The notes beneath the pieces are model-generated. The model was not told where the DNA came from, made no database searches, and was given only the letters and a program-made list of their open reading frames with translations. A stretch of DNA of 61,273 bases, taken from NCBI GenBank assembly GCA_015066625.1, contig SVOC01000018.1:1-61273 (forward strand), in the 5' to 3' direction. This stretch comes from Oscillospiraceae bacterium. GTDB taxonomy: Bacteria > Bacillota > Clostridia > Oscillospirales > Acutalibacteraceae. Numbering within the stretch: the first letter of the stretch is position 1; every line of letters begins with the position of its first letter. Below are positions 236 through 18,107 of the stretch, piece by piece. A program made the position numbers and the translations under genes.

Positions 236-272
236 AAAAAAAGCAGGCAAACCACAAAAGTGATTTGCCTGC
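236..272 (-). terminator. Rho-independent terminator, minus strand
   Basis: GCAGGCAAA (243-251) and TTTGCCTGC (264-272) form a perfect 9-bp stem. On the minus strand the stem is followed by a run of T. It lies directly after the stop codon of the peptide tail at 282-383, and before the Tn7-like insertion it would have ended the recombinase transcript. Confidence 0.75.
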
Positions 273-281
273 CGGAACTAT

Positions 282-383: not shown

Positions 384-385
384 AC

Positions 386-390
386 TGAAA
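386..390. repeat. 5-bp target-site duplication, left copy (TGAAA)
   Basis: TGAAA immediately precedes the TGT terminus at 391 and recurs at 15017-15021 immediately after the ACA terminus at 15016. Five-base duplications are the norm for Tn7-type transposition. Confidence 0.85.
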
Positions 391-606
391 TGTTATGGGG
401 CAACCCCTTTTATAATTTTAGGGGCAATTCTGATTATAAAACTACTATTTCATAATTCACTTAAAAAATGATTATAAAATTCGTGTTTTATAAGCTTTTT
501 CAAGGGTTTTCAGTGTAAAAAAAGACCTCATAGGATTTCTCCTACAAGGTCTAATTTTTATATTCGGTTTTGCCTTATTTTTTCAAATTGGCTTTGCCCA
601 AAAACA
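391..606. repeat. 216-bp direct repeat, left copy; itself a TGT...ACA mini-transposon
   Basis: Identical base for base to 14801-15016 and in the same orientation. It begins TGTTATGGGGCAA and ends TTTGCCCAAAAACA, so each copy alone has both left-type and right-type Tn7-like termini. GGGGCAA motifs recur at 397 and 421, and TGATTATAAAA at 431 and 469. A terminator hairpin sits in the middle. No coding capacity was found. Confidence 0.9.
521..558. terminator. Terminator hairpin inside the 216-bp repeat
   Basis: AGACCT with TAGGA pairs with TCCTA and AGGTCT (523-552), followed by TAATTTTT and preceded by a run of A. It could insulate the element from host transcription in both directions. The same structure is in the right copy at 14931-14968. 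Confidence 0.65.
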
Positions 607-629
607 TAGAAAACAACCTTGTGGGATAA

Positions 630-1370
630 TTATAGCACAAGATCGGTATCTTTACAACGGTATTTTGTAAACTTTTCTATATCCATTTCAAGCAATAACT
701 TTTGCAAATAATGCTCCTCATATTTAGGGACAAGGCGCGGAAAGAACCTTCCCTTAACCAGATAAAAATCTTGATTGCATATTTTACCGAGGTGTTCTTT
801 CCTTATAGCCCATTTGTTTTTGCCAAGGTATTTTAATAATTTGCACAGCTCTGCATATCCCTCGCAGTAATACAATAAGCGGTGCTCTTCTTTTCTCAGA
901 TATGAAAAACAAATTCGATATCCGCTGCCGTCGTAAGCCGCAATCATAGCAAAAATATCTTTATAGACACGCTCGAAATGCTCTTTTTGGCTATTCGCCT
1001 TTCTTGGAATAAAAGATAAATTATATATTCTGTTATTTCGCTTATCACCTTGCAGGTGATCTATGCACCAGTCATTATCATTGAGCTCTTTCCTGAAATC
1101 AGAAAGAACTTGCAAATAATTCTCTTTGGTTAAATTGCGATAATGACAACAATAAACGATGTGGTGGAAATATACAGTGCCACATTTACAGATGAATTTT
1201 AGATAACCGCCGCTTACAGCAGCGCTTCTAAAAACACCACTTGTCATAATATCATACAATTCGTCGGTATAGGTGGCAACAAAGTTCTTTCCATTACTGA
1301 GAATTTTTATATGTAAATCATCACCGATTCTGGCTATTTGATATCTCCATACAGTTACAACATCGGTCAT
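630..1370 (-). CDS. HNH-type endonuclease-like protein
   Basis: About 246 residues, starting at an ATG six bases after AAAGGAGG. The middle of the protein has HHIVYCCHY followed by DWCIDHLQGDKRNNRIYNLS. This is the layout of HNH nucleases of the phage/homing type, in which the H...DH-x-GDK-x-x-NR-x-x-NL pattern holds the catalytic and metal-binding residues. The N- and C-terminal parts are unrecognised, with Tyr/Lys-rich segments near the end. It lies just inside the left transposon end, pointing outward. A role in DNA invasion or self-spread is inferred only. Confidence 0.6.
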   Translation of the reverse strand: MTDVVTVWRYQIARIGDDLHIKILSNGKNFVATYTDELYDIMTSGVFRSAAVSGGYLKFICKCGTVYFHHIVYCCHYRNLTKENYLQVLSDFRKELNDNDWCIDHLQGDKRNNRIYNLSFIPRKANSQKEHFERVYKDIFAMIAAYDGSGYRICFSYLRKEEHRLLYYCEGYAELCKLLKYLGKNKWAIRKEHLGKICNQDFYLVKGRFFPRLVPKYEEHYLQKLLLEMDIEKFTKYRCKDTDLVL

Positions 1371-1595
1371 ATACATCCTCCTTTGTTTTCAAATTACAGC
1401 TAAACCACCTATAAGAACAAGAAAACAACGACACAACAAAAGCGAGAAATACACGAAAGCATCACACTATTGTTAGTTTTTTCTCATTTCAGTTTTGTCG
1501 TGAGCCAAACCGTATGAAAAAATGATGTTTTCGCCGTTATCATATATTCTTGAGGGATTTCATTTTTGTCTTCATGGGAAAGGTGCGAATTTTCG

Positions 1596-2510
1596 CTATT
1601 GTCGGCAGAATTGCCCCAAAATTTTCACTTCATCCCAATGTGAACCTTTATATAGTATATTGGGATTTACATATATTTTGGCATCGCCGACATTGTTCAA
1701 GCTTGACACAAAAGAGCAGAATAATTCGGTTCGCCCCTCCACCTCAAACTGTATCTGAGCGTATGCTTTTATAAGCCGTGCTCTTTGCTCGACCGTATAT
1801 CCACACTCAACACAAAATTCATCGAGAGTCATAGGGACTATATAATCCAAATTCTGCTCTGTGGGATTATGGCAGAGAATGTTATATTCCATATTCAAAT
1901 ACGGAAGCAACTGAAAAATATAACCTAAATAGCGATGTTTTGTCACCGGAATTACATCATATAGCTCTCGGATTGCATCAATAAATAATTTTTGCCACTC
2001 GATGCCAATTTGAGACTTTGGCATTTTGCCTCGTAAAAAATGAACATTCGATAATTGAATAGTACCGTCATCTTTTTCGATCAGGTACTTACCGTATACA
2101 TCTTTCCAAAATCGCCAGAATGTAACAGGCGATAACCGCAAGACTCTTGGTAAATCTTCTTTGCGAAGCTTTGTTTTCTGTGTTGCAGCCAAAACATCTG
2201 AGTTATAAGCCAAGAAGGTACACAAATACATAAGTCTGCCTACGGAGTTGGGGTCAATATCACGATAATTGTACTGTGCGTTCACGAATGCAAACTTCTT
2301 ATTTTTGTTTCGCCGTAGTGCAGCAACCAGTTCCTTTTCTTTACGCTCTTTATATTCCCGTTGTTGTGCGGGAGTGTAGGCGACGGTACCGACAGGCGCT
2401 TGTATAACTACAGTGTTGAGTACTTCGCCGGTATCCTCGTCTATGGCAACGACCTCACCGGTTTCCTCAAGAGTTACATATTCATAATAATCTTTATATT
2501 TTTTCGGCAT
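1596..2510 (-). CDS. Replication-initiator-like winged-helix protein
   Basis: About 304 residues, starting MPKKYKDYYEY after GAGGTG. An acidic N-terminus (residues 1-60) is followed by a Lys/Arg/Glu-rich stretch. A segment around 115-150 (LRKEDLPRVLRLSPVTFWRF) then looks like a helix-turn-helix or winged helix. The C-terminal IYVNPNILYKG resembles the conserved end of plasmid RepL-like proteins of Firmicutes. It is divergent from a resolvase gene with a res-like site between them, an arrangement common on plasmids. The replication function is inferred; it could instead be a regulator of the element. Confidence 0.4.
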   Translation of the reverse strand: MPKKYKDYYEYVTLEETGEVVAIDEDTGEVLNTVVIQAPVGTVAYTPAQQREYKERKEKELVAALRRNKNKKFAFVNAQYNYRDIDPNSVGRLMYLCTFLAYNSDVLAATQKTKLRKEDLPRVLRLSPVTFWRFWKDVYGKYLIEKDDGTIQLSNVHFLRGKMPKSQIGIEWQKLFIDAIRELYDVIPVTKHRYLGYIFQLLPYLNMEYNILCHNPTEQNLDYIVPMTLDEFCVECGYTVEQRARLIKAYAQIQFEVEGRTELFCSFVSSLNNVGDAKIYVNPNILYKGSHWDEVKILGQFCRQ

Positions 2511-2551
2511 TTCACACCTCATTTATAATAATTGCTTGTATATCCGTAATG

Positions 2552-2657
2552 GTGTACTTTTATGAACACCCCTAAACGACCTGCTTTTTGTGTTCGTAAA
2601 TGTACCTTTTCAAAAAACGGATATGTCCGCTATATCAACCAACTTTACGAACACATT
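2552..2657. promoter_or_regulatory. Putative res site of the adjacent resolvase
   Basis: Three related, partly palindromic blocks lie upstream of the resolvase: GTGTACTTTTATGAACAC (2552-2569), TGTGTTCGTAAATGTACC (2589-2606) and AACTTTACGAACACATT (2641-2657). The shared core is TGTTCGTAAA or its complement. Tn3-type resolvases bind several such subsites upstream of their own gene, so these blocks may also act as promoter operators for both divergent genes. Confidence 0.55.
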
Positions 2658-2672
2658 AAAGGAGAAAAAACA

Positions 2673-3275
2673 ATGAATAACAAAACTTTTTATTATGCTC
2701 GCGTTTCCACCAGAGAACAGAACCTCAACCGTCAGATCGCTGCCTTTTTAGCGCTTGGTGCTACCGAGAGAGATATTATCACCGATAAGGAAAGTGGGGC
2801 GAATTTAGACAGGAAGGGCTACACCGCACTAAAAAACACACTGTTACGACGCGGTGATACTCTGGTTATCAAATCGTTAGATCGCCTTAGCCGCAATAAG
2901 ACCGACATTAAAAACGAATTGCAGTTTTTTAAGGATAACGGTATTCGGCTAAAAGTCTTGGATCTTCCTACGACTCTTATGGAATGCCCGGAGGGGCAAG
3001 AGTGGGTATGGGATATGGTTAATAATATCCTTATTGAAGTAATAGGAACTATTGCTCAACAGGAGCGTGAGACTACAAAGGCGCGTCAATCGGAAGGGAT
3101 AGCCGTAGCAAAATCTAAGGGTGTTCCTTTTGGAAGACCCAAGGCACAACAGCCGGACAACTGGGATTCTGTCATTTGCGAGTGGCGAAACGGAAATATA
3201 ACCGCCAAAAGAGCAATGGAACTCACACAGACTAAGCGGACGACCTTTTACAAGCTTGCAAAATCAAATATATAG
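2673..3275 (+). CDS. Small serine resolvase/invertase
   Basis: 200 residues, from ATG 2673 preceded by AAAGGAG; an upstream in-frame ATG at 2562 lies in the res-like region and lacks a ribosome site. The N-terminus FYYARVSTREQNLNRQ carries the catalytic serine. SLDRLSRN and the GTIAQQERETTKARQ helix follow, as in the resolvase family. The C-terminus (about 160-200) has AKRAMELTQTKRTTFYKLAK, a helix-turn-helix for binding res. The size is typical of Tn3-type resolvases. It probably resolves cointegrates or multimers of the element. Confidence 0.88.
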   Translation: MNNKTFYYARVSTREQNLNRQIAAFLALGATERDIITDKESGANLDRKGYTALKNTLLRRGDTLVIKSLDRLSRNKTDIKNELQFFKDNGIRLKVLDLPTTLMECPEGQEWVWDMVNNILIEVIGTIAQQERETTKARQSEGIAVAKSKGVPFGRPKAQQPDNWDSVICEWRNGNITAKRAMELTQTKRTTFYKLAKSNI

Positions 3276-3331
3276 TGTTCTGGGGTGGGCTACATATATA
3301 GTAGCTTTGTTCGGTGTGGTAAAATGCGCAA

Positions 3332-3360
3332 ATAGACCGCCATTGCTGACGGTCTATCGC
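3332..3360 (+). terminator. Terminator after the resolvase
   Basis: ATAGACCG (3332-3339) pairs with CGGTCTAT (3350-3357), followed by a short T-run. It separates the resolvase from the convergent cohesin-dockerin gene. Confidence 0.6.
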
Positions 3361-3392
3361 TTTTATGTAGTACGATTGTATGCCTTTGATTT

Positions 3393-4097
3393 TTAATAAT
3401 AGATTATACCGTCAATTGCTTCCATACCAACCATATAGCGCGAGAGCTTCACAAGGTCTCTACCGTCGATTTCTCCGTCCTTGTTCACATCCGCACCGTA
3501 TGTGTTGATTTCCGTTTCCAAATAAACCAGATAACGAGCAAGCTTAACAACATCAGCACTGCTAATAGACAAATCGTTATCCACATCGGCGATAAGATAG
3601 CGAAATATCGTAATTTCCCCCGCCTCCACTGTCAGGGGAATGCGAGAGCCGTTTTCATTACAGATATCATTTTCATTGTATTCCAAGGTTACAGAATAAG
3701 TACCTTCTCTTGCACTGGATTTTACTTGAAATACCAAGGTGAAAATTTGGACTCCCCCTGAACCTGAAAAATCGTAGTTTTGAGTATTGTACCAAATAAA
3801 TTTCGGATTGGTGGGGTCTTCGTTATATAAAAAGCTACCCGTTTCAATTTGGTTTTCAACAGCAACTAATTCAAGCGCTGTGTGATCGTATGTAGGTGTA
3901 AAGGTTAAGCAAGCTACACCATCAGAAAGGTCAGCAGAGACCTGAACCTCTAACATTTCGCCCGGCTTCGCTTTGCCACCGCGAACATAAATATGATTTA
4001 ATCCATCATCGGCGGCAGAAACGGAAACAGAGCATACGCTTACAAGCGTAGTCATAAGGCATACTGCCATTAAAAGAGATAGTATTCTTTTCTTCAT
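3393..4097 (-). CDS. Secreted cohesin-like / type I dockerin protein
   Basis: 234 residues. A signal peptide (MKKRILSLLMAVCLMTTLVS...VSA, residues 1-28) is followed by a beta-rich domain (about 35-160). This domain has the cohesin-like pattern LEVQVSADLSDGVACLTFTP, YDHTALELVAVE and FTLVFQVKSSAREGTYSV. The C-terminal 65 residues hold two calcium-loop repeats, DVDNDLSISSADVVKLARYL and DVNKDGEIDGRDLVKLSRYM, a type I dockerin. Such modules build cellulosomes or other surface assemblies in ruminococci. It starts 3 bp after the XRE gene stop, so the two are co-transcribed. It is unusual cargo for a Tn7-like element. Confidence 0.8.
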   Translation of the reverse strand: MKKRILSLLMAVCLMTTLVSVCSVSVSAADDGLNHIYVRGGKAKPGEMLEVQVSADLSDGVACLTFTPTYDHTALELVAVENQIETGSFLYNEDPTNPKFIWYNTQNYDFSGSGGVQIFTLVFQVKSSAREGTYSVTLEYNENDICNENGSRIPLTVEAGEITIFRYLIADVDNDLSISSADVVKLARYLVYLETEINTYGADVNKDGEIDGRDLVKLSRYMVGMEAIDGIIYY

Positions 4098-4099
4098 TA

Positions 4100-4405
4100 T
4101 TATGTACCTCGTTTCGTTTTGTTTTCCATAAACACATTAACCATCTCGCATACTGCTGCGGCTTCGCGTTCTGTTAATCCCGATATATCCAAATACCGCT
4201 TGCTTTCCACACATAGCAGGTAATCGGTTGTAACGCCGTACAAAAGCGCAAGTCGTATCAATATCCCGTTTGATGGTTCTCGTAGTGCGTTTTCATACGC
4301 ACTTATAACAGCGCGGGTAACACCGACCAACTCGGCTACTTGCGCCTGCGTTAAATTACGGTCTCTCCGTAATTCCTTTAATCGTACTGAAAGGCATACA
4401 ATCAT
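4100..4405 (-). CDS. XRE-family transcriptional regulator
   Basis: About 101 residues from the ATG six bases after GAGGTG (MIVCLSVRLKELRR). The helix-turn-helix is LTQAQVAELVGVTRAVISAYENALREPS at about 16-43. The C-terminus is a short helical extension. It is divergent from the lipoprotein gene and upstream of the dockerin gene on the same strand. The palindrome at 4441-4459 is its likely operator. Confidence 0.8.
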   Translation of the reverse strand: MIVCLSVRLKELRRDRNLTQAQVAELVGVTRAVISAYENALREPSNGILIRLALLYGVTTDYLLCVESKRYLDISGLTEREAAAVCEMVNVFMENKTKRGT

Positions 4406-4440
4406 AAACATCACCTCTTTATAAAATTTTACCAAGAGTG

Positions 4441-4459
4441 ATGTTTCTTGTGGAAACAT
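4441..4459. promoter_or_regulatory. Palindromic operator between divergent genes
   Basis: ATGTTTC-TTGTG-GAAACAT is a perfect 7-bp inverted repeat just upstream of the XRE gene. A further AAATGTTTCTG half-site lies at about 4520. It probably autoregulates the XRE gene and the divergent lipoprotein gene. Confidence 0.5.
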
Positions 4460-4533
4460 TAGCGATTTGTTTCGTAGCATCACGAAAAAAATCGAAAAAT
4501 GCTACAATTTTCAAGCATAAATGTTTCTGTCAG

Positions 4534-4562
4534 TTGCTTTATTCACAATTTTATGCTATAAT
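4534..4562 (+). promoter_or_regulatory. Sigma-A type promoter of the lipoprotein operon
   Basis: TTGCTT at 4534-4539 and TATAAT at 4557-4562 with a 17-bp spacer, 38 bp before the ATG at 4600. Confidence 0.6.
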
Positions 4563-4599
4563 TATCATTGGAATTTTATATGCACAGGGGAACTATGCA

Positions 4600-5004
4600 A
4601 TGAAAAGAATGATGATCGCATTATTGGCGGTAGTGATGTTACTTTCAATTACCGCTTGTAGTGATAATAATAGCAACAATGGATCCACCACCGATGGGAC
4701 TACAGTATCTACATCTGAGTATGTAGGCGAATGGAAAGCCAATACGGTATCGGGGCTCATAGATGGTGAAAAAACCTATACCGTTTCGGTAATTGAGCTT
4801 AAAGAAGATGGCACCGGCACATATAAGGGACGCGAGCTGTCTTGGAGTTATTCTGAAGAACAAAATACAATCAATGTAACGCTGTTGAAAGAAAATCAGA
4901 CCACCGCCTTTGAAATACAAGAAATGGATGGTGTTACCGTACTCAAATTTTTTGACGATGTATATTATCGAGCTGAAGAATTTGTCCCAATAAATCAAGA
5001 GTGA
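4600..5004 (+). CDS. Small lipoprotein
   Basis: 134 residues from ATG 4600 after CAGGGG. A signal peptide ends in the lipobox LLSITAC, so the protein is probably anchored at the membrane outer face. A Ser/Asn/Thr linker follows. The C-terminal domain (about 40-134, VGEWKANTVSGLIDGEKTY) has the short beta pattern common in Clostridia lipoproteins of unknown function. It is translationally close to the next gene (11 bp before its likely start). Confidence 0.75.
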   Translation: MKRMMIALLAVVMLLSITACSDNNSNNGSTTDGTTVSTSEYVGEWKANTVSGLIDGEKTYTVSVIELKEDGTGTYKGRELSWSYSEEQNTINVTLLKENQTTAFEIQEMDGVTVLKFFDDVYYRAEEFVPINQE

Positions 5005-5014
5005 GGTGATGCAA

Positions 5015-6361
5015 GTGGGAAAAATTTATTGCTCCAAATGTGGCACACAAATAGAAGATACTGCATCATTTTGCTATAAATGCGGAACCCCTGTAACTGT
5101 AATGGAAGAAAGCAAAATGGACACTGCCACTTCTACTTCAGGTAAAAAGCTTCGTAATCCCTTTACTAAATGGATATTTATTACAATCGCCGTGCAAATT
5201 GGCTTAATCATACTTAGTGCCAGACCGGGTGACTTGGGCGGATTTGCTTTTGGTTCTGCGTTGGCATTGACACTTGTGGTCTTATCTTTAGGTATTATAA
5301 CCATCTTAAAATCTAAGAATTATAATAACACGGGTAAATCCACAGGTATCGTATTTACCATTCTTTCATCCATAATTATTCTCATTGTTGTTTTGGCAAT
5401 TTTGTTTGCTGGCGGGGACAACAATACTAATGATAATGATGATGGAAATTCCGCTACACAAAGCACTTCTGATATATCCACTTCTCAACCAGAAGAGGAC
5501 AAGAAAACACCAACAGTGACTCCTACAAATTGGGATACTTTTGAGTGCAATTATTATGGTGATATTCCTGTTGGCTTGTTGGATACCCCCGACGCAACCA
5601 GCGACATTGTTACAAAATATATCAATGAAAAAATCGGCAGAACGGATACATACGAAGTAAAACAGGTCTATAATGCTTATCACGCTAACCTGATAGAGAT
5701 AGAGAATCTCTTTACAATATATAACTGCAAAGGTACCGCGCGCTTTTACTTTGACTGGGCAGAAACATTGTATAAGATTGAATTTGAGTTTTCTGAAGAC
5801 GGCGGAATTACCCCCGCAATTATGAGTAAAATTCACGATGATATAGATAATATTGTAGGCGGCAAATGCGCGACAAATTATCTTATCGACAAAGGTGCTT
5901 CTAACCCCCATGACGAGTTTACCAATAACGGTATGTGTACTTGCGGTTGGCATCTGCAAGAAGATCTGAATTGTACCGCCAGAATGACCAGCTATTTTAA
6001 TAATAGACCCATCGAATGCACATTCGAGCTTGAAAGAAATAAATATACAAACAAAACAAATTACAATGTTTCTGGTAACATCGGAGCAGGTTCAGACTCT
6101 ATAACCGTAAGCGGCGTGACAATTAAGGGCACTTACCACGATGCATCCAGTCCTTATGTAAGCGGTACGGCTACAAACAATTCATCTAAGACCGTTGAGT
6201 TTATAAAAATTAAAATCGCCTTGAAAGACAGTTCTGGCAAGGTAACAAATACCGTGTGGACATACGCTGTTGGCGCGGAAGGTTTGGCTCCGGGTGAAAC
6301 AACGCAGTGGACGGTTTACTGCACAAAAGCAGAAGATATCGAAATCACGATTTTTAATTAA
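5015..6361 (+). CDS. Zinc-ribbon membrane protein with extracellular domain
   Basis: About 448 residues from GTG 5015, which sits six bases after GAGGTG; upstream in-frame GTG/ATG codons at 5006 and 5009 are too close to that site. An N-terminal zinc ribbon (CSKCG...CYKCG) is followed by three membrane segments (WIFITIAVQIGLIIL, ALALTLVVLSLGIITIL and ILSSIIILIVVLAILF). An acidic Asn/Asp/Ser/Thr linker leads to a large C-terminal part ending in a FxxAM-like beta domain (about 350-450). Its function is unknown. It probably works with the preceding lipoprotein at the cell surface. Confidence 0.7.
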   Translation: MGKIYCSKCGTQIEDTASFCYKCGTPVTVMEESKMDTATSTSGKKLRNPFTKWIFITIAVQIGLIILSARPGDLGGFAFGSALALTLVVLSLGIITILKSKNYNNTGKSTGIVFTILSSIIILIVVLAILFAGGDNNTNDNDDGNSATQSTSDISTSQPEEDKKTPTVTPTNWDTFECNYYGDIPVGLLDTPDATSDIVTKYINEKIGRTDTYEVKQVYNAYHANLIEIENLFTIYNCKGTARFYFDWAETLYKIEFEFSEDGGITPAIMSKIHDDIDNIVGGKCATNYLIDKGASNPHDEFTNNGMCTCGWHLQEDLNCTARMTSYFNNRPIECTFELERNKYTNKTNYNVSGNIGAGSDSITVSGVTIKGTYHDASSPYVSGTATNNSSKTVEFIKIKIALKDSSGKVTNTVWTYAVGAEGLAPGETTQWTVYCTKAEDIEITIFN

Positions 6362-6378
6362 CAGTATAAAAAGCAAAA

Positions 6379-6413
6379 CGGCAGGGGTGTTTACCAATGA
6401 AACGCTCCTGCCG
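6379..6413. terminator. Convergent terminator hairpin
   Basis: CGGCAGG (6379-6385) pairs with CCTGCCG (6407-6413) with an inner GTGTTT/AAACGC extension. It lies between convergent genes and lacks a strong T-run. Confidence 0.5.
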
Positions 6414-6420
6414 CTGAACC

Positions 6421-6678
6421 TTATTCAATTTCTTGCTCTAACTCGTCAAATAACGGGGAATCGAAAAAATCCTTTAGAGACATATTTAACCCATCACAAA
6501 TGATTTTTATGGTAGCAATCTTCGGGTTTTGACTTTTACCATACAATATATTCTTTAGTGATGAACGGGACAACCCCGCAATCGTTGCAAGAGCATTTAT
6601 TGTAATATCGCGCTCTTCGCATAATCTTAAAATTCGTATCTTTATCGCTTTACAAAGCGGTGTTCTATTATCGACCAT
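6421..6678 (-). CDS. XRE-family regulator paired with SLOG protein
   Basis: 85 residues. The helix-turn-helix lies at about 20-60 (ITINALATIAGLSRSSLKNI), and the tail ends FFDSPLFDELEQEIE. It is clearly homologous to the 80-residue regulator at 36177-36419 (ITxNALAxIxG and IKKICDGLxxSxxxFFDSxLF pattern). Both are divergent from a SLOG-type gene. It probably represses the divergent pair through the inverted repeats at 6677-6774. Confidence 0.85.
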   Translation of the reverse strand: MVDNRTPLCKAIKIRILRLCEERDITINALATIAGLSRSSLKNILYGKSQNPKIATIKIICDGLNMSLKDFFDSPLFDELEQEIE

Positions 6679-6774
6679 TCTATATATACCTACTTTCCCA
6701 CCCTACTATATATAGAATAGCCTTTTTTTATAAACTTTATGGGCTACGCGTGCCACTTTGGGCTATGTGTAGCC
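6677..6774. promoter_or_regulatory. Divergent promoter/operator region of the XRE-SLOG pair
   Basis: ATTCTATATATA (6677-6688) and TATATATAGAAT (6707-6718) form a perfect 12-bp inverted repeat. GGGCTACGCGTGCC (6741-6754) and GGGCTATGTGTAGCC (6760-6774) form a second repeated element before the SLOG ribosome site. These are likely operators. Confidence 0.55.
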
Positions 6775-6789
6775 TACAAGGAGAGAGTT

Positions 6790-7218
6790 ATGAGAGAAAA
6801 AACAGCTACTTTTATTGGACACAACGAGTGCTATGGCGTAGATCATAGTGCCATACGCATCGAGGTGATATCCCTTATAGAAAAAGGTGTTACGGATTTT
6901 TTGAATGGAGGAATGGGCGGATTCGATTGGTTGTGCGCAAGAGTTGTCCACGAACTTAAAAATGATTATCCTCAGATCCGCAATTATCTGGTGATACCGT
7001 ATCTCACATTCTCTATCCGGAACAAAGACATATTTGATGATATTATTTACCCTGATGGTTTTGAAAAATATCACTTCAAGGCTGCGATACCCAAAAGAAA
7101 CCGTTATTTGATAGATAATTCTGCATACGCAATATGCTATGTAAAGCACGGTTGGGGTGGTGCCGCTAAAACTTATGAAATGGCAAAAAAGAAGAAGATC
7201 GAGATTATTGATGTCTAA
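6790..7218 (+). CDS. SLOG-superfamily protein (DUF1273/YpsA-like)
   Basis: 142 residues from ATG 6790 after AAGGAGAGA. The N-terminus KTATFIGHNECYG and central FLNGGMGGFDWLCARVV give the Rossmann-like nucleotide-binding pattern of SLOG/LOG proteins. RNRYLIDNSAYAICYVKHGW-GGAAKTYEMAKKK gives the conserved end. SLOG proteins sense or hydrolyse nucleotide-derived signals and often occur in defence loci. A homolog with the same neighbour layout lies at 35579-36043 next to AbiH. Confidence 0.72.
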   Translation: MREKTATFIGHNECYGVDHSAIRIEVISLIEKGVTDFLNGGMGGFDWLCARVVHELKNDYPQIRNYLVIPYLTFSIRNKDIFDDIIYPDGFEKYHFKAAIPKRNRYLIDNSAYAICYVKHGWGGAAKTYEMAKKKKIEIIDV

Positions 7219-7241
7219 ATCATTTATATCTGATTTTTTAC

Positions 7242-7272
7242 GAGCAGCAGTTTTTCTGTTGCTCTTTTTTTG
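7242..7272 (+). terminator. Terminator after the SLOG gene
   Basis: GAGCAGCAG (7242-7250), TTTTT loop and CTGTTGCTC (7256-7264), then seven T. Confidence 0.75.
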
Positions 7273-7422
7273 CACAACTTTCCTTCGTGTGCCACTGCTT
7301 TATCTCACGGTAAGCAGTTTGCATAAATCCATTGCAAAGAGGTGGTCAGCTTGATTGTTTTGGCTTGCGGCGTATAGTGCCGTAGTATGCACAAGTACAC
7401 AAAGGAAGGAGGTAATCATCCT

Positions 7423-7491
7423 ATGGAAGAAACAACGCCAATATTGGCAAAATTGGAGGTAATGCAATATGGCAAAGAAGCTCGACGCTGA
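7423..7491 (+). CDS. 22-residue leader ORF overlapping the recombinase start
   Basis: ATG 7423 follows AAGGAGG and reads MEETTPILAKLEVMQYGKEARR, stopping inside the recombinase gene after a 23-bp overlap. An in-frame ATG at 7388 would add twelve residues. The good ribosome site and the overlap suggest translational coupling to the recombinase. Its own function is unknown. Confidence 0.45.
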   Translation: MEETTPILAKLEVMQYGKEARR

Positions 7492-8689: not shown

Positions 8690-8694
8690 TTATT

Positions 8695-9108: not shown

Positions 9109-9122
9109 CTACACATAAAGAG

Positions 9123-9158
9123 GCGACAGGGGGAGTTAATGCCCTCTGTCGCTGTTTT
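9123..9158 (+). terminator. Terminator after the recombinase operon
   Basis: GCGACAG (9123-9129) with GGGG pairs with CCC and CTGTCGC (9146-9152), followed by TGTTTT. Confidence 0.65.
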
Positions 9159-9658
9159 GCGTTATGCGAAAATGTCTTAAAGTACCGATGTTTCCATACT
9201 ATTCACGCTAATTATAATTTGCATTTTTCTCGGAGAAAAGCAGGAAACATCCATCTTTTCGTTCATTTTAACACTTGCTCTTTTGCAAAATCTAAAGAAA
9301 AACCGATGAATTCCATACTTTTATTCTTTTCGTTAAGTTCATTAAAAGTGCGGAAATATCCATCCTTTTTAATTAACAAAAATGATGTTTTTGTTCGGGG
9401 ATTAAATAAATATTTTTGCTCCTGAAAATACAGAGATTAAGCGGTTTTTTCGCAGCCAGATTTATTCAATACGATAAGCTTGGAAAAATGTGTATTACCA
9501 ATCGGCGAGAAAAAGCCGCATTTTTCCGACCAATTTAGCATCACCGGTTATAAAAACACTCCCGCTGATTTTTAATGCCTATACTCCCTCTAAAACGGAG
9601 CCCCCTGAAATTCTTAAAATAGCCCCCACCCCTTCAAAATAGCCAGAAAGTAAAGGAA
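9159..9658. other. 500-bp non-coding stretch with degenerate repeats
   Basis: No convincing gene is present. Two copies of CCGATG-TTCCATACT lie at 9185-9200 and 9303-9319. Two copies of GGAAAxATCCATCxTTTT lie at 9243-9259 and 9352-9370. Together these give a roughly 110-120-bp degenerate tandem unit. AT-rich sequence and a GCCGCATTTTTCCG motif follow. These could be recombinase or transposase binding sites, or the decayed edge of a nested element. Confidence 0.4.
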
Positions 9659-9883
9659 GTGAAAAAGATCAAAGAATTCTTTAAGAAGTTGGATTTGAAA
9701 AATAATTCCAACACGGTTTTAGCAATCATTATGGAAGTCATCTTGCTGGGCGATATCGTTATCGCAGCGGTCAAGGGCATTTCGTTATTTGGGTATATTA
9801 GCACTGCGGTTATTGCTATGATGTATGTCGGATTGTCCGAGTATAACCTACGGCGCTTTCTCAAGCACAAATACAAAAAATGA
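9659..9883 (+). CDS. Small membrane protein
   Basis: 74 residues from GTG 9659, reading MKKIKEFFKKLDLKNN, then two hydrophobic segments (VLAIIMEVILLGDIVIAAV and FGYISTAVIAMMYVGL) and a basic tail RRFLKHKYKK. The ribosome site (AAAGGA) is very near the start. It is convergent with tniQ, its TGA stop 14 bp from the tniQ stop. Its function is unknown. Confidence 0.45.
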   Translation: MKKIKEFFKKLDLKNNSNTVLAIIMEVILLGDIVIAAVKGISLFGYISTAVIAMMYVGLSEYNLRRFLKHKYKK

Positions 9884-9894
9884 TTATAAAAGTA

Positions 9895-11232
9895 CTATTC
9901 TATTATTCGTATTATATCTCTGGCGACCTTTCGTGTGGTTTGTTTCCTTATATGAGGTATTACCTTTTCAATGTTTGATTTCTTTACTCCGGTAAGTGCT
10001 CTAATATCAGACCAATAAAAAGGCTTGTTTTCACGGGATAGTTTCTTATATGCCCATATAATGCGACGCGCCCAATTCTCCTCATAGCTCTCAGTGTATT
10101 TATCAAACACAGCTCGGCACATAGGGAGTATTTCCAACCTATGCTGTGGAAGCCCCATTTCACGGTATATTATTTTTTCCGACACGCGCTCTGGTCTCCC
10201 ACTATTATTGGCAGTGCCGTCATATATGGAACGCGCCATAGCTTCTAATTTGGGCGCTGTTTCTGCATCATATAACGACCAGTCGATTATCTCTCTGTTC
10301 TTTATATAATGAGAGTCTTGCTCTTCTGACACTTCTTTTTCGGTCAGCGTAGGCGATGTGAGTTCAGAAATACTCATACCCAGATAGTAGGCGATCTGAC
10401 ATACCACAGAAAAATCATAGCGATTCCCCAATAGCACACGCTGTATTTGATATATACTTGCAATATCCGGCAAACCAATATTTCGGTAAAACACCTGCAT
10501 ATCATCTGCGAGCTGCTTTGTGTGGCGGCTTCTTCCTGAGTTTTTCATATATCTGCTTTTCTTCATAGCTTTGTATAGCGCTGCGCTTATCGGTATATCC
10601 TTTTCAAAATCGACCGGCGAATTGAAAACATCACACATATATTTTGTAAAAGCATATCGGTCTTTGTTTTCATCCATAACAGGCTCTTTTGTTTCGATGT
10701 TTGTTTCTGCCGGGCAGAGGGTGAAATCTCCTTCGCTTTTTGCAGGAACAGTGGAATTTTGTAGCATACACCCGTGGTTAGCACATATTTGAATATTACG
10801 AAGTTGGTGTAGTCTATGCCAATAAGTTTCGCCGTATTTTTCACGATCCTCGTTTGCGCATATAGGGCAATACTTCAAAAAAGCGTCGGTTTCGTGTCTT
10901 GGCAATATTGCAAATAAATGGTGCGCATCACAAAAATCATAGCCAATATGATAAACGGCATTTTTCTTTTGATCGAGGGGGATGAATCTGGCATACTGTG
11001 GCACCATTGTGTGCTTTAATATTATATCTTCAATGCTATATTTTCGTTTGATAGCTTCGGTCATATCAAAGCCGAGCCGTCCCAAAAACTCCTTGCTTGG
11101 ATTGTTATGACGCTTATATAAGATATCCTCCAAAGCAGACTTGTGCGTTAAATATCCGGAGTGCGCATAATATCTGCAAAACCAGCTATAAGCCAACTCG
11201 TCCGGGTAGAGTTCAGGTAAATAAGCTATCAT
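9895..11232 (-). CDS. tniQ: TniQ/TnsD-type target-selection protein
   Basis: 445 residues. The N-terminal TniQ domain starts LPELYPDELAYSWFCRYYAHSG. A zinc finger follows at about 125-160 (CPICANED ... HRLHQLRNIQICANHGCML), the pattern that links TniQ proteins to a target site and to TnsC. The C-terminal half is helical with IYQIQRVLLGNRYDFS and YKKLSRENKPFYWSDI helix-turn-helix-like parts, as in long TnsD proteins that read a specific attachment sequence. It overlaps the tnsC stop by 4 bp. Being the only TniQ here, it presumably directed the insertion near the recombinase 3' end. Confidence 0.88.
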   Translation of the reverse strand: MIAYLPELYPDELAYSWFCRYYAHSGYLTHKSALEDILYKRHNNPSKEFLGRLGFDMTEAIKRKYSIEDIILKHTMVPQYARFIPLDQKKNAVYHIGYDFCDAHHLFAILPRHETDAFLKYCPICANEDREKYGETYWHRLHQLRNIQICANHGCMLQNSTVPAKSEGDFTLCPAETNIETKEPVMDENKDRYAFTKYMCDVFNSPVDFEKDIPISAALYKAMKKSRYMKNSGRSRHTKQLADDMQVFYRNIGLPDIASIYQIQRVLLGNRYDFSVVCQIAYYLGMSISELTSPTLTEKEVSEEQDSHYIKNREIIDWSLYDAETAPKLEAMARSIYDGTANNSGRPERVSEKIIYREMGLPQHRLEILPMCRAVFDKYTESYEENWARRIIWAYKKLSRENKPFYWSDIRALTGVKKSNIEKVIPHIRKQTTRKVARDIIRIIE

Positions 11233-12467
11233 ACTCGCACCTCCTCTACAGGGAAGTGTTTTTTCAGAAGTGTAATAATGTTCTTATTTTTCCTTTTTGC
11301 ATCGTTAACAGTTTGAGCCACCGATACTGCTATGTCCTCAACGATGTCATTCCCAAGGATATTAACTTCATATTTAGCATTCCTGTTTGTTGCTGTTTGC
11401 TTTCCTTGGTTGATTGTTGGTTCAATATATTCGTGGAGAAGCGCCAAGCGTTGTTTATATGCCATATTTAAGGTCTCTAAGCATAATTGCTCCTTTCCAC
11501 CTAATATCGCAATTTCTTGAGCATCGTGTATTAAAGAAACCACCACAGCGATAATACCGCCACTATGTTCATATAGCCATTCTGTTATTGCATCGTTTAT
11601 TTCGGTTTTCTCCCGTGTATATTGATATGAAAATAAGGTTTTGCACACTTTTGAAAAGAATTCATTATATGGTAATGCTGAATATTGTAACCCAAGTGAG
11701 CGACGGGCGAGCTGCAATGCCTGTTCAAAGAAGATGCTGCATTCGGGAGTACCTACCATACAAATCGAAATGCCGCTGTTGTTAATTAGCTGAGTCAGCA
11801 TACCAACCAGATTTCTACCGTTTTTACTGCTGACAACATTTTGTATTTCGTCAACAACCAATAATCCAATATGGTTTATTGCCACTTGACTCACGCTGCC
11901 GATCAGCATATCTGTGGTAACACGGGTTTTTAAGGATTTATTATAATAGTCGCTTCCTATGGATTCATCGACTTTTCTTAAAATCTCCAAAAGTAAGCCT
12001 TTAACAGAGGAGTCAAACGGACATTGTACCACAACACACGGAATAATTCTCCGATATGGTTTTTCGGTTTCGATAATACCGTTGGCAGTTAAAAGACTGA
12101 TGGATCTGTCTATAGCGGAGCTTTTACCTATGCCGGATGTGCCTATAATAGTAAAGCTATCTGAACCGCCTATGATACCGCTGTAAGACTCTCGTTGCAA
12201 TCCACGATAATTTTCGTTTTGCTGTAATACTGTAGTTCTTGTTGTTTTCTTTTGCAATGAGCGCAGAAGCGCCAAATATATCTTGCTGTAAATTTCAATG
12301 GTCATAGGTGAAGGTATATAGAATTTGTATAAGTCAGATAATGCGATTAAACGCTCCGCTTGGCTATGGTTGCGAATATTATCGTCATAGTCGGGCAACT
12401 CAGAGAGAGCAGAAAATAAATCATCCCCGGATTTCATATCAGGCAGTAATTTTAATACATCATTCAT
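11229..12467 (-). CDS. tnsC: TnsC AAA+ ATPase
   Basis: About 412 residues; ATG 12467 overlaps the end of tnsB. The Walker A motif IIGTSGIGKSS is at about residue 110, Walker B LLVVDEIQNV at about 205 and the sensor-like SICMVGTPE at about 240. TnsC bridges the target-bound TniQ and the TnsAB transposase and controls target immunity. It sits between tnsB and tniQ in the usual Tn7-like order with short overlaps, so translation is coupled. Confidence 0.9.
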   Translation of the reverse strand: MNDVLKLLPDMKSGDDLFSALSELPDYDDNIRNHSQAERLIALSDLYKFYIPSPMTIEIYSKIYLALLRSLQKKTTRTTVLQQNENYRGLQRESYSGIIGGSDSFTIIGTSGIGKSSAIDRSISLLTANGIIETEKPYRRIIPCVVVQCPFDSSVKGLLLEILRKVDESIGSDYYNKSLKTRVTTDMLIGSVSQVAINHIGLLVVDEIQNVVSSKNGRNLVGMLTQLINNSGISICMVGTPECSIFFEQALQLARRSLGLQYSALPYNEFFSKVCKTLFSYQYTREKTEINDAITEWLYEHSGGIIAVVVSLIHDAQEIAILGGKEQLCLETLNMAYKQRLALLHEYIEPTINQGKQTATNRNAKYEVNILGNDIVEDIAVSVAQTVNDAKRKNKNIITLLKKHFPVEEVRV

Positions 12468-14271
12468 TGTTCGCACCCGCCTTTACATAATCTATATGTG
12501 TCTTGCGCTGCTCGCGCTTACGGTTATCTCGAATCCCCTTTATTTGCGTGTTCCCTTGGCTTACTGCGGTTTCAGTAACAACAGTAATATGTTTTGCTAA
12601 ATCAATTCTTGCTTGCATATTCGCCTCTGTAGCGGCTTTTACGGCGGCTTTATGTGCCTCTTTTATCAGTTCGACATCTTGTGTGCCCTTGCCGTCAAAG
12701 CGTCTCTCAATGAGTGTAAACGGGCTGTAAGACCCATTCTCTACAAGCCATACCTCAGATACATCATCGGGATTATATGCTACAGTTGCATTCCCTCCGG
12801 TTAAGTATTTTTCGGTGTAGTCATTGTTCTTATATCTTAATTTATTTACAGTAAGCCCTTTCCTGCTGAACTTTCCTATTGTTCTGGGAAGTAGCGTTAG
12901 GATCAGTGTCGGATAATCCACCGGAATAACACCTGCACCAGCTTGGGTAAGCCCATAATTCCAAATACAGCTTGAATACGGCTCTATGCCTTCAGCAAGC
13001 ATCGCTTCTGTGTATGGGAAACTATCGTTTACACGCTGGCTATTGTAGTAAACGATGCAGCGGAGAATTATTTTTTCAAAATCCGCCATTGTCAGTCGTG
13101 CATCTTTCCTATAATCGTGTGCGCCGCGCTCTCTGTAGTTAGGTTCAATAAATCCTTTGCCTTTTAGATATGGCTTATAAAGCCCCTGTATTACATCAAA
13201 AAACTTCTCTACAGCGCCTTTTAGTTCGGGTCTATACGGTGGCAGGTTAACAACGGTTACGCCCAAATCTGCAATTTGCTCAAAAGTTGATGATACATAT
13301 TCTTTTCCCATATCCGTAACAAGAGTAGAAGGAAGCATATTACAATTCCATTCCTCTTGCGTTATTATAATACCGTGCCTTTTGCATAACTCTACTTTAT
13401 CGGCAATAACCGTCGCCATAAGGTTTCTGAGGCTATAAACACCGCCTTCCCAAGAGAGCGAATAACCGCAACACAAGCCGCTATAGGCATCTACGCAAGC
13501 CGTTAATATAGGTCTGCCCACAAGCTTTCCAGCTTCGTTTACAAGGTATATATCGCATACAGTGGCATCCAGCATACCCACTCCGATATTAGGCGCAAAC
13601 GCTTGTATGCCGTCCCCCAGAAGAGGTCTGTTGTTGCGCTGATAGTTTTTAAGACCATCTCTGGAAATGTAATAATTCTGCATTTTCTTATGTTTCCGGT
13701 AATAATAACGAAACTGGTAGAACGAGGGATATGGCTGTACCAAAGTACCATTAGTATCGCAATACTTTTCCTTGAGCATTAGTGTATATGCGGTGTTTAA
13801 TGTATTGCCGTTTTGAGTGTAAAAATACTTATTAAGTGCCCAGCGGAAGTTCTTTTCTTCTGGTGATAATTGCTTTTCTGTTAAAAGAGCTTTAGGTGCA
13901 AGGGCTGATACAGTTTGGTGTACAAGGTATAACCACAAATAATTATATATCGTCTGCTTGCTTATACTGTTGTATTCAGCCACTCGCGCTATTGCCGCAC
14001 ATCGTTGTTTCTTATCTGCAATATAGGGGAGAATACCGGCAATTAAGGTGTATCTCTCATAGGCGATTTTTCGGCTTTGAGGATCCAAGTCATTGATATC
14101 AGGTAACACTGAGAACACATCTTCACAGGGGATATATTCAGAAAATGCGACGCGGGATGCCCATTTTGGCATTTTCTTATCAATGCAATCTACAAAAAGA
14201 AATTCATTCTCGTTACTTTCAAGTACTCGTATTATTGCCTGCCCGTGCTGTAATAGCTGATTATTCTTCAT
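12460..14271 (-). CDS. tnsB: TnsB DDE transposase
   Basis: 603 residues. N-terminal helix-turn-helix DNA-binding domains precede an RNase H-like core. The catalytic triad is visible: Asp in GMLDATVCDIY (about 235), Asp in STLVTDMGKEYV (about 318) and Glu in KGAVEKFFDVIQG (about 352). A Mu-type beta-barrel and C-terminal tail follow. TnsB binds the repeated end sites and joins the 3' ends to the target. It overlaps tnsA by 11 bp and tnsC by 8 bp. Confidence 0.93.
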   Translation of the reverse strand: MKNNQLLQHGQAIIRVLESNENEFLFVDCIDKKMPKWASRVAFSEYIPCEDVFSVLPDINDLDPQSRKIAYERYTLIAGILPYIADKKQRCAAIARVAEYNSISKQTIYNYLWLYLVHQTVSALAPKALLTEKQLSPEEKNFRWALNKYFYTQNGNTLNTAYTLMLKEKYCDTNGTLVQPYPSFYQFRYYYRKHKKMQNYYISRDGLKNYQRNNRPLLGDGIQAFAPNIGVGMLDATVCDIYLVNEAGKLVGRPILTACVDAYSGLCCGYSLSWEGGVYSLRNLMATVIADKVELCKRHGIIITQEEWNCNMLPSTLVTDMGKEYVSSTFEQIADLGVTVVNLPPYRPELKGAVEKFFDVIQGLYKPYLKGKGFIEPNYRERGAHDYRKDARLTMADFEKIILRCIVYYNSQRVNDSFPYTEAMLAEGIEPYSSCIWNYGLTQAGAGVIPVDYPTLILTLLPRTIGKFSRKGLTVNKLRYKNNDYTEKYLTGGNATVAYNPDDVSEVWLVENGSYSPFTLIERRFDGKGTQDVELIKEAHKAAVKAATEANMQARIDLAKHITVVTETAVSQGNTQIKGIRDNRKREQRKTHIDYVKAGANNE

Positions 14272-14605
14272 TTATCACCAACCCCCAATCTGTTACACCG
14301 CGACGGAGCCAGTAAAGTCTCGATTCGTCCAGCAGTTTAACGGTTAGTGGTTTAGAGAGATACTTCCTATTAACACACTCTCTAACAAGGAGATCTCCAT
14401 TGGTTCTGGTACACAGAAAATCTGTTGTGTATTCACCAATATCAAGGTTCTCCAAAAGGACATTGCACCTAAAGGATGCAATATCGTCATTTTCTTGTAA
14501 AAAGGTAGCATAGACATATTGAATGCCGTCGTAGGTTCTGCATATTTCTGAACACTTACCGAGACTACGCTTTTCACATCTTCCTTTGTAATTCTTTTTT
14601 CTCAT
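14261..14605 (-). CDS. tnsA: Short TnsA-like endonuclease
   Basis: 114 residues; classical TnsA is more than twice as long. The segment LENLDIGEYTTDFLCTRTNG (about 50-70) followed by LLVRECVNRKYL matches the end of the TnsA nuclease core. In that core an acidic residue and a (Q/E)xK-type motif bind metal; here the second motif reads RECVNRK, not a clean ExK. SRLYWLRRGVTDWGLVIN is a typical TnsA ending. TnsA cuts the 5' ends to allow cut-and-paste. If this short form is weak, cointegrates would be expected, which fits the 216-bp direct repeats. Confidence 0.68.
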   Translation of the reverse strand: MRKKNYKGRCEKRSLGKCSEICRTYDGIQYVYATFLQENDDIASFRCNVLLENLDIGEYTTDFLCTRTNGDLLVRECVNRKYLSKPLTVKLLDESRLYWLRRGVTDWGLVINEE

Positions 14606-14637
14606 GCTATGAAAACCCTTTCTGAATTTATTATCAA

Positions 14638-14781
14638 TTTCCCCAAAAACATTCCCAAAGACGAGATTGCCTTCCCAAAAAGGATTTCTTCTCTTGATTT
14701 TTGGGGATTTGAATGTGAGAAAACATTGATTTTACCGCATTTTTCGGTATTCCCAAAAACAAAGTGTGTTTCCCAAAAACA
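14638..14781. promoter_or_regulatory. Array of TnsB-site-like repeats upstream of tnsA
   Basis: TTCCC-AAAAACA-type motifs occur at 14638-14651, 14652-14661, 14672-14684, 14698-14707 (inverted), 14750-14761 and 14769-14781. The transposon terminus at 15003-15016 (TTTGCCCAAAAACA) has the same core. Repeated TnsB sites near the end next to tnsA are a Tn7 hallmark. Because they overlap the tns promoter region, they would also autoregulate the operon. Confidence 0.7.
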
Positions 14782-14800
14782 TTATATTGGCATTTCACTA

Positions 14801-15016
14801 TGTTATGGGGCAACCCCTTTTATAATTTTAGGGGCAATTCTGATTATAAAACTACTATTTCATAATTCACTTAAAAAATGATTATAAAATTCGTGTTTTA
14901 TAAGCTTTTTCAAGGGTTTTCAGTGTAAAAAAAGACCTCATAGGATTTCTCCTACAAGGTCTAATTTTTATATTCGGTTTTGCCTTATTTTTTCAAATTG
15001 GCTTTGCCCAAAAACA
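14801..15016. repeat. 216-bp direct repeat, right copy
   Basis: Identical to 391-606, including the flanking A and T bases. Its right edge is the outer ACA terminus of the element, followed by the TGAAA duplication. Its inner edge TGTTATGGGGCAA has no duplicated flank, so the copy behaves as one end of a cointegrate. Confidence 0.9.
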
Positions 15017-16780
15017 TGAAATATAAATTACTCCCCAAATCTGATAGCTGCCTGTGTCGCAATTCTGCTTGGTTGGCAGTTTTCCGCCAACCACAGAAAC
15101 AGAACTGTTTTTTCTTCTTTTGCCCTCGGTTTTCATGTGAAGAGGGTCATTGGGGTCGCCGTCAAAGCGAAGATACCAATCAAAGCCGTCTTGCCTTACC
15201 ACAATCTTCACCACAAAGGCTTCAATAACACTTTCGGGGATGTCTTTTTCATCCGCATTTGTGTACTGCTCGAGAGCATATTGAAGCACCGTCAGCTTGT
15301 CTTTGTAATCTGTAATTACAGGCTCTTTGTTAAGCTTCAGCTGAAGCTCCTCGATTTCGGCAGTCAGCTTTGCAATCTCTTCTTTAACCTCGGCAGTTTT
15401 CTTTGTGTAAGATTCTTTATCAATTTCACCCTCTGCCCTCATATCAATGAAATTACTGAGCTTCGTTCTGTGCCTTTCAACCTCTCTGCACTTTTTCTCG
15501 ATTATAGCCGCATAATCCACATCATCCTCTTTGTCGTCAATGTGAGCTTCAAGCATTGAGTTGGCAAGAGCCAGCACCTTGTCCTTTTCAGAAAGATAGT
15601 TGCGGAAAATATAATTCGCCATCATCTGCAGTTTCCACTCGGGAATCATTGGCACACGGCATATTCCGTCAAGAGGCAAGCCTTTTTTCTTTCGGCTCTC
15701 GTATGACCCGGTACGCACCGAGTCATAGCATTGATAACCGATAATGGATTTATCTCCCTCTTTTCTCCAGAGCTTTGTATTGAATCTGTGACCGCATTCG
15801 CAGATGAGGAGCTTTCCCCATACTGTTGTTCTCGGTCTTTTGCCGGTTGTACTTCTTCTGCCTGTGTTAAGATTTTTCATCTGAGCTGTTTTACTTGCCA
15901 TAATTAATTGCACCCTTTCAAATTGTTCTTCAGTAATAATCGGCTCGTGTCTTCCCTTTACCTGTATCAGTTCAACCTCACCGTAATTTTTAATCTTTTT
16001 CTGTGTGAGATAGTCGGGAGTATACTCCTTGTGATAGGTTATGATTCCGCAATAGAAGGTGTTTTTCAGCACATGACCTATTACGGTTTCGTACCACCTT
16101 GTTTTGCCCATAGCAGTTTTTCTGCCTTGGCGTTCAAGCTCTTCCTTTATCTTGGTAAGTCCGTTGCCTGCAAGATACATATCATATATGAGCTTTACCG
16201 TTTCCGCCTGTTCCGGGTCGATAATGAAATCCACCTTTTTCTTGTTGTCGGGCAGAAGCTCCTGATGTCTTCTGTAGCCTAAGATATTGCCGTTGCCGTA
16301 GAATGTGCCGTTGTTCATTGAGGTCTGCTGACCGCTTTTCACTCGCACCGAGGTTTTACGGCTTTCATCCTGAGCAAGAGTCGCCATAATGGTGAGACGA
16401 AGCTCGCCGTCACCGTCAAAGGTTTTGATGTTATCATTGATGAAGAACACCTCAACGCCCTTTGCCTTCAGATCTCTTGTGTACTGCAGAGTGTCAACGG
16501 TATTTCTCGCAAATCGTGACACCTCACGGGTGATAATCATATCAAACTTTTTCTGCTTGGCATCGCGAATCATTTTCATAAACTGCGGTCTTTTCTCGGC
16601 AGAGGTACCCGTGATACCCTCGTCAATATATCTGCCGACGAGCTCCCATTCAGGTCTTGCAGCAAGGATTGGCTCATACCAATCCAGCTGATTTTCAAGA
16701 GCTGAAATCTGCGCCTCGTGCTCCGTAGAAACTCGGGCATAGATTACAACTCTGCGTTTACCGAAATCAGAATTTATCAT
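14993..16780 (-). CDS. Large serine recombinase (integrase of the mobilizable island)
   Basis: About 595 residues from the ATG seven bases after AAAGGAGGA; it overlaps the upstream gene by ATGA. The N-terminal RVVIYARVSTEHEAQ has the catalytic serine at about 17. EVSRFARN and ATLAQDESRKTSVRVKSG follow. The recombinase domain (about 170-290) and a zinc ribbon (CECGHRFN ... CYD) come next. A long coiled coil (about 400-480) ends the conserved part. The last seven residues and stop lie inside the 216-bp transposon repeat. Before insertion the frame would have ended a few codons later in the sequence now at about 362-385. Confidence 0.92.
   Translation of the reverse strand: MINSDFGKRRVVIYARVSTEHEAQISALENQLDWYEPILAARPEWELVGRYIDEGITGTSAEKRPQFMKMIRDAKQKKFDMIITREVSRFARNTVDTLQYTRDLKAKGVEVFFINDNIKTFDGDGELRLTIMATLAQDESRKTSVRVKSGQQTSMNNGTFYGNGNILGYRRHQELLPDNKKKVDFIIDPEQAETVKLIYDMYLAGNGLTKIKEELERQGRKTAMGKTRWYETVIGHVLKNTFYCGIITYHKEYTPDYLTQKKIKNYGEVELIQVKGRHEPIITEEQFERVQLIMASKTAQMKNLNTGRRSTTGKRPRTTVWGKLLICECGHRFNTKLWRKEGDKSIIGYQCYDSVRTGSYESRKKKGLPLDGICRVPMIPEWKLQMMANYIFRNYLSEKDKVLALANSMLEAHIDDKEDDVDYAAIIEKKCREVERHRTKLSNFIDMRAEGEIDKESYTKKTAEVKEEIAKLTAEIEELQLKLNKEPVITDYKDKLTVLQYALEQYTNADEKDIPESVIEAFVVKIVVRQDGFDWYLRFDGDPNDPLHMKTEGKRRKNSSVSVVGGKLPTKQNCDTGSYQIWGVIYISCFWAKPI
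15017..15021. repeat. 5-bp target-site duplication, right copy (TGAAA)
   Basis: Matches 386-390. Here it forms part of the recombinase reading frame. Confidence 0.85.
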
Positions 16781-18103: not shown

Positions 18104-18107
18104 CATA

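Follow-up and report, generated by a model that had tools for sequence, protein, structure and literature searches.

We analyzed the 61,273 nucleotides of contig SVOC01000018.1 (assembly GCA_015066625.1) of an Oscillospiraceae bacterium, hereafter the window, in which positions 386 to 15021 hold a Tn7-like element with a 216-bp unit (U) repeated in direct orientation at both ends. With a probability of roughly 0.55, such elements arise when a circle carrying one U integrates replicatively as a cointegrate. The broader proposal, to which we give about even chances, is that they form a Tn7-like branch without cut-and-paste transposition, in which a noncoding unit with both transposon ends drives the site-specific replicative integration of a circle, in a cycle like that of long terminal repeat (LTR) elements and with a dead TnsA.

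The two units, at 391-606 and 14801-15016, are identical over 216 bp and have the same orientation, and no transposase gene lies within them. They are the only two matches to U at E ≤ 0.001 in the 2.37-Mb genome, with no third copy. Because the next longest direct repeats shown for positions 1-20000 measure about 32 nt at about 70%, an exact repeat of 216 bp is far beyond chance. TGAAA stands at the outer edges only (386-390 and 15017-15021), while the inner flanks, TAGAA and CACTA, are not duplicated. Both the repeat and the edges had been described correctly in an earlier note made from the same DNA. Read in the direction of tnsB (minus strand), the left unit is U1 and the right unit is U2:

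386-390: target-site duplication TGAAA, distal copy
391-606, minus strand: right unit U2, identical to U1
607-626, minus strand: end of the body (...AAGGTTGTTTTCTA before U2), resembling that of relatives (CAAGG...TACTA)
14801-15016, minus strand: left unit U1, on the target-gene side
15017-15021: target-site duplication, proximal copy

Direct copies of the unit around a donor, with the target duplicated outside only, are the hallmark of a cointegrate, and the earlier note had proposed a cointegrate of a mini-Tn7. That idea holds insofar as the unit resembles a complete mini-transposon, solo units exist, and TnsA looks dead. What does not hold is a chance event in one genome: the arrangement is instead a family architecture, in which the inner junctions are alike among elements.

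The family was collected by a TnsB scan of genome contigs, which gave 44 loci with 56-73% identity in the best segment (G, C, and L numbers are our labels for genomes, contigs, and loci). A complete or partial U adjoins tnsA-tnsB-tnsC-tniQ in 42 of them. Its inner boundary falls about 510-680 bp before tnsB in 39 of the 44, including some contigs that begin inside the unit and show only its inner part; three further loci (L069, L072, and L082) also have the unit. Of the remaining two, L071 begins too near tnsB and L078 has only a 33-nt match. The inner flanks are alike among elements (...TACTA, ...TACCA, or ...TTCTA before U2; TAG or TGGTG after U1), although those of one element do not match each other; U therefore has a fixed place in the element.

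The ends of U are inverted copies in 33 whole left units (212-317 bp), the match between end 14-mers averaging 11.8 against 3.6 for random internal pairs (the lowest values being 3, 6, and 7). The middle of U holds a hairpin and then a T run. Among 20 units, 94.5% of the hairpin pair cells are standard pairs and 24 cells carry changes on both sides where shuffles give 6.9; such changes fall on 5 pairs, a number that shuffles also reach (98 of 500). A covariance model of the left part of U found matches in 105 of 398 family genomes at E ≤ 0.01, many of the weak ones probably being other terminators. In 24 left units of subfamily B, which are related to each other, conservation is 0.87 in the first 13 columns and 0.91 in the last 13, the inner end, where the last three bases were fixed by the regular expression used for excision; among the intervening 20-column windows, that of the hairpin alone is as high (0.86).

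This conservation bears on an explanation that we consider unlikely on balance, in which U-body-U moves as a composite by its outermost ends, through cut-and-paste or through a cointegrate that the resolvase or homologous recombination then resolves, and gene conversion keeps the repeats alike. It predicts outer target duplications equally well and agrees with the small serine resolvase encoded in five of the eight elements compared and with the lack of any circle junction seen (below), but it leaves the inner U ends unused, which in subfamily B are nevertheless conserved like the outer ends. Moreover, U is alike within elements and strongly different between them, so that homogenization would have to be frequent.

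Most A-type units (e.g., L044:132-159) share a central dyad near TGTCAATAAAA-N6-TTTTATTGACA, which could be a recombinase site. As a crossover site inside U in general, this dyad was dismissed: it is missing from the six B units tested, and no link to a resolvase was shown. Among wider relatives, G577 and G526 have no direct repeats, G450 has repeats elsewhere, and the only repeat in G431 is a tandem confined to the vicinity of tnsB. In G501 (C33, L236-L237), a 139-bp repeat that brackets 28 kb was not counted, since it includes the guaA tail and no more than part of a unit; this combination recurs 28 kb downstream, probably as the mark of another integrative element at guaA.

A second unit is present on the same contig in the window, G692, G684, G677, G695, and a short, decayed element in G223. 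In G706, the right unit lies on a separate contig and has the outer 5-mer of the left unit, on which the pairing partly rests. The element contigs of G672 and G673 end in the first 139-141 nt of their own unit, and a ppdK contig enters the same unit start; in G670, U holds the end of one contig and the beginning of another. Contigs that end in this way are equally expected from a repeat-bounded element, a circle, or a tandem. G667 and G671:C51 have additional right or truncated units. That assembly placed one U on both sides is very improbable: several relatives' contigs do end inside U, but long contigs enclose the two copies together with their matching outer flanks in G692 (182 kb), G695 (134 kb), and the window, and the 638-kb contig of G223 also has both copies, with a 6-bp match. 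Two unusual arrays were seen. Contig G684:C19 (L135-L137) has four units in one orientation within 41 kb, and ATTTC borders, on each side, the 26 kb that separate the second from the third, as if this stretch had formerly carried a solo unit. In G136, contigs C67 and C107 (L215 and L216) carry several solo units in succession downstream of guaA and ppdK, and on C67 only TGTGT separates the first two.

Target duplications were compared at 12 sites picked for readable outer flanks on both sides. The outer 5-mers match exactly in the window (TTTCA in the tnsB direction), G692 (ATAAA), G695 (TTAAA), and G706 (CAAAT), as well as at the solo units of G084:C2 (TCAAG) and G136:C67 (TGTGT), the latter two being the kind of solo copy with a 5-bp duplication that the earlier note had recommended searching for. 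Matches are partial in G684 (4/5), G677 (only the 4-mer TGGT), and G223 (only the 6-mer AGCCTG). Only 1 of 132 noncognate combinations matches exactly, and none of 20,000 shuffles reaches six. Outside this set, the outer 5-mers differ in two split cases, G685 (CGTGT/TCGAT) and G704 (TAAAG/CAACC).

Within elements, U1 and U2 are 89-100% alike in the six cases with both units readable, and in five of these pairs the closest of the 33 left units to the right unit is that of its own element. The identities to its own left unit (next best in parentheses) are 100% (58%) for the window, 100% (47%) for G692, 99% (90%) for G677, 95% (88.5%) for G706, and 89% (83%) for G695. In G672 and G673, identity is 100% over the readable 139-141 nt. 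Two separately inherited lineages would differ far more; renewal of the repeat at each insertion, as in a cointegrate, is the simplest cause, with gene conversion as its rival. In G695 the differences lie mostly at 174-209, and in G706 they lie near both ends; this clustering points to recombination with other units as well.

Such clusters, as from the mixing of two units, would also be left if a single-U circle recombined, homologously or site-specifically, with a solo U resident at the target, an alternative that the earlier note had raised and that we keep while holding it to be quite improbable. It is in line with the occurrence of solo units at the same sites and distances, with the ATTTC flanks on both sides of the 26-kb stretch in G684, and with the right unit of G684 being closest to another genome's unit. 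Yet the two units are 100% identical within the window element and likewise within G692, no single U shared by two bodies was found under exact patterns in 40 genomes, and U must itself have transposed earlier.

The transposition genes of the element, all on the minus strand, precede U2 in the reading direction as follows:

9895-11232, minus strand: tniQ (PF06527), target selector of the ppdK type
11229-12476, minus strand: tnsC/TniB-like ATPase (PF13401/PF05621)
12460-14271, minus strand: tnsB, DDE-type transposase
14261-14605, minus strand: TnsA-like protein of 114 amino acids, without two of three catalytic residues
14640-14779: five TTTTTGGGNA sites before tnsA

The TnsB product matches Mu-transpos_C above the cutoff and rve weakly. 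Its residues D235, D240, D320, and E355, which we take to be the DDE residues, are invariant across 14 aligned relatives. Upstream of tnsA, TTTTTGGGNA sites are present in all eight elements scanned and, in the window, resemble the unit's own end; they are possible TnsB sites and may perhaps serve TnsB self-regulation.

Most loci have, ahead of tnsB, an open reading frame (ORF) that is related by homology to the window's tnsA-like gene and is 114 codons or longer; the exceptions are L078, with an unrelated ORF, and a few short contigs without such an ORF. The Pfam TnsA N-terminal domain (PF08722) matches weakly (0.056 in the window; 8 of 12 members, the best at 3.3e-4). Aligned with a Tn7 TnsA (hhalign 4.7e-5, 68% probability), the window protein keeps the D, has Q for E, and has V for K, the three residues that we assume to be catalytic. 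The PD-(D/E)xK active site of a cut-and-paste TnsA is thus absent from it. The distant relatives G450 and G431 have the same small form, with V or A at the lysine position, and a profile search of solved structures with the TnsA-like alignment returned one chance match only. Judged by its residues, the protein looks catalytically dead, and the loss of two catalytic residues predicts cointegrates. According to passages of one report, mutating the TnsA active site of another Tn7-like system leads to cointegrates in which duplicated mini-Tn copies enclose the donor backbone (PMC8188705), and groups lacking TnsA are regarded as replicative in passages of two others (PMC8649781 and PMC11406308).

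The insertion sites are specific. Among 57 units examined, which come from related genomes and do not give independent counts, 38 lie past the 3′ end of ppdK and 15 past that of a gene that we take from its C-terminus to be guaA, while four were left unsorted by the script. All 38 units of the ppdK type are 26-28 bp from the AQAAI codons, and 12 of the 15 guaA-type units are 6-7 bp after the stop codon (the others being at 1, 9, and 109). Of the four unsorted units, those of the window and G063:C78 each lie at 26 bp by hand count, that of L060 is inside a tandem, and that of L067 follows a gene that is presumably gpmI. A tree of 27 TniQ proteins (those long enough and with a known target, the labels of L044, L045, L052, L067, and L068 being set by hand) separates 18 ppdK, 8 guaA, and 1 gpmI types, whereas the TnsB tree places L062 (guaA) with elements of the ppdK type. 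TniQ therefore most likely picks the insertion site.

Replicative integration, as we infer it, would run as follows. The free form would be a circle with the tnsA-like gene, tnsB, tnsC, tniQ, cargo, and one U, whose two ends would be the transposing ends. TniQ would select the 3′ end of ppdK or, in relatives, that of guaA or gpmI; TnsC would recruit TnsB, itself attached to the two ends of U, and TnsB would link the 3′ ends of U to target positions staggered by 5 bp. With a TnsA-like partner unable to cut the 5′ strands, replication would copy U and leave the circle between two direct copies. Recombination between the copies, by homology or perhaps by the resolvase where one is encoded, would then release the circle and leave a solo U. 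The repeat and its recurrence in the family, the outer duplications, the solo units, the conserved inner ends of U, the loss of TnsA residues, the site specificity, and the link of TniQ to the target can all be read from the sequences, while the circle, the replication, and the release are deduced from them.

Several observations weigh against this account. (i) A circle junction, in which the body is joined through one repeat as the earlier note had foreseen, was not found by exact patterns in 30 and 10 genomes, several of which have unit or body ends that these patterns could not match; nor was one found in viral_contigs or, apart from one chance match, in the family loci collected. A TnsB scan of viral_contigs gave six loci, with no circle at the locus ends inspected. 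(ii) In G676, G685:C5, G691, G697, G700, and G704, no second U was seen over 30-38 kb or up to where the contig stops, nor was one seen over a shorter reach in G674, G690, G668, G680, G687, and G706:C9; a whole-genome search of G676 with a related unit found one place only. It is thus not established that there are always two units. The earlier note would have given up its proposal had the unit never occurred alone or had related elements of the same length shown nonrepeated ends; the unit does occur alone, and some relatives have no second unit, their far end being unseen. (iii) The outer flanks are unmatched at three of the five solo-like units (G381, G192, and G136:C107), and 14 units of a list of 21, excluded from the 12-site set since their right end was unclear, they stood beside another unit, or a body followed, have no 5/5 match. 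(iv) The right unit of G684 is closer to the left unit of L062 (95.2%) than to its own (94.4%), and the unit of G672 also resembles those of G669 and G693, at 98% and 96%; with units so close to those of other genomes, these two cases say little. (v) Among the elements compared, G684, G677, and G695 lack the resolvase. (vi) Tn6022, with its own normal TnsA, forms 39.1% cointegrates according to passages of PMC10293859, so that a cointegrate alone is no proof of a dead TnsA.

The other genes annotated in the window element are three cargo genes and a small resolvase:

630-1376, minus strand: HNH-endonuclease-like gene, below the Pfam cutoff
1596-2522, minus strand: gene earlier called replication-protein-like, without a family match
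2562-3275, plus strand: small serine resolvase (PF00239), with relatives in four of seven other elements
7469-8689, plus strand: larger serine recombinase, weakly CcrB-like

The earlier assignment of a resolvase gene and tnsABC-tniQ to the donor part is borne out, with a weak match for tnsA; its res-like site is not. The gene at 1596-2522 has no match in Pfam, NCBIfam, or PADLOC and no counterpart in the seven other elements, and plasmid replication genes are not a common feature of the elements, which leaves the suggested plasmid donor unsupported. A plasmid origin was rejected after a TnsB search of PLSDB, in which all 738 records were below 60% identity (about 25% among the matches listed), as was a phage origin, no close TnsB relative being found in phages. 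Only the tnsA-like gene, tnsB, tnsC, and tniQ are common to all eight elements compared (E ≤ 1e-4); a small helix-turn-helix-like ORF is present in six. Among ten cargo proteins scanned per library, one was ThsA-like (a defense gene, in G695) and two were helicase-like (one each in G692 and G677).

The target gene of the window has a further history:

15022-15054, minus strand: former 3′ tail of ppdK, now cut off from the gene (...QAAIRFGE and its stop codon at about 15028-15054, followed by 11 bp up to U1)
41136-43769, minus strand: ppdK (TIGR01828), the original target, with a 3′ end from a later integrative element

Window positions 15044-41165 hold a 26-kb integrative element with a large serine recombinase and relaxase-like genes (identified by eye). 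The gene ppdK now terminates at 41136 with ...QAAIADGRK, and its current end and former tail have the core CAGGCAGCTAT in common. The split end and the shared core indicate that the 26-kb element entered ppdK after the Tn7-like element. Close relatives of its recombinase region match only from about 15040-15050 onward. The view that the Tn7-like element had inserted into a serine recombinase gene was wrong, as that gene belongs to the later element. Two unrelated mobile elements thus use the same ppdK 3′ end. On G672:C14 (L125), a second ppdK allele precedes a unit, and the sequence next to that unit resembles the ppdK end of the integrative element (...QAAIADGRK). Positions 28343-35359 contain, by eye, three cytosine-methyltransferase-like genes (one with a Vsr-like part) and HNH-like and ATPase-like genes, perhaps a restriction or defense island of the integrative element.

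If our account is true, this transposon family copes with cointegrates in that the cointegrate itself has become its end product, and its retained, apparently inactive TnsA is a natural test of the roles of TnsA besides cutting. The link between TniQ and the target (ppdK, guaA, or gpmI) would offer protein-guided sites at fixed distances, with swappable selectors, in Clostridia and relatives. No description of this build was found in the titles, abstract beginnings, and passages that our literature search covered, subscription papers being outside its scope. With Tn7 and Tn7-like elements the family shares the TnsB, TnsC, and TniQ families, 5-bp duplications (with exceptions), and insertion at a fixed distance past the 3′ end of a conserved gene; it differs in its 114-amino-acid TnsA-like protein without E and K. 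Whereas Tn7 has one left and one right end, each with several TnsB sites, each element end here appears to be a whole mini-transposon in direct orientation, both inverted ends seemingly being present in every U. As for the TnsA-less Tn5053/Tn402 and type V-K CRISPR-associated transposons, a cointegrate pathway is expected, but here a degenerate tnsA is kept, a resolvase is present in five of eight elements, and the element itself seems to serve as donor backbone. LTR elements, as an analogy only, likewise have near-identical direct terminal repeats, solo repeats, and target duplications, but the present elements have a Tn7-type DDE transposase and no reverse transcriptase was seen in them. The nearest analogy is the translocatable unit of IS26/IS6, a circle with one repeat copy that gives rise to two direct copies and an outer duplication, together with the IS26-type pseudo-compound transposon, whose flanking repeats encode the transposase; in contrast to these, the repeat here is noncoding, the transposase lies between the repeats, and the targeting is site specific.

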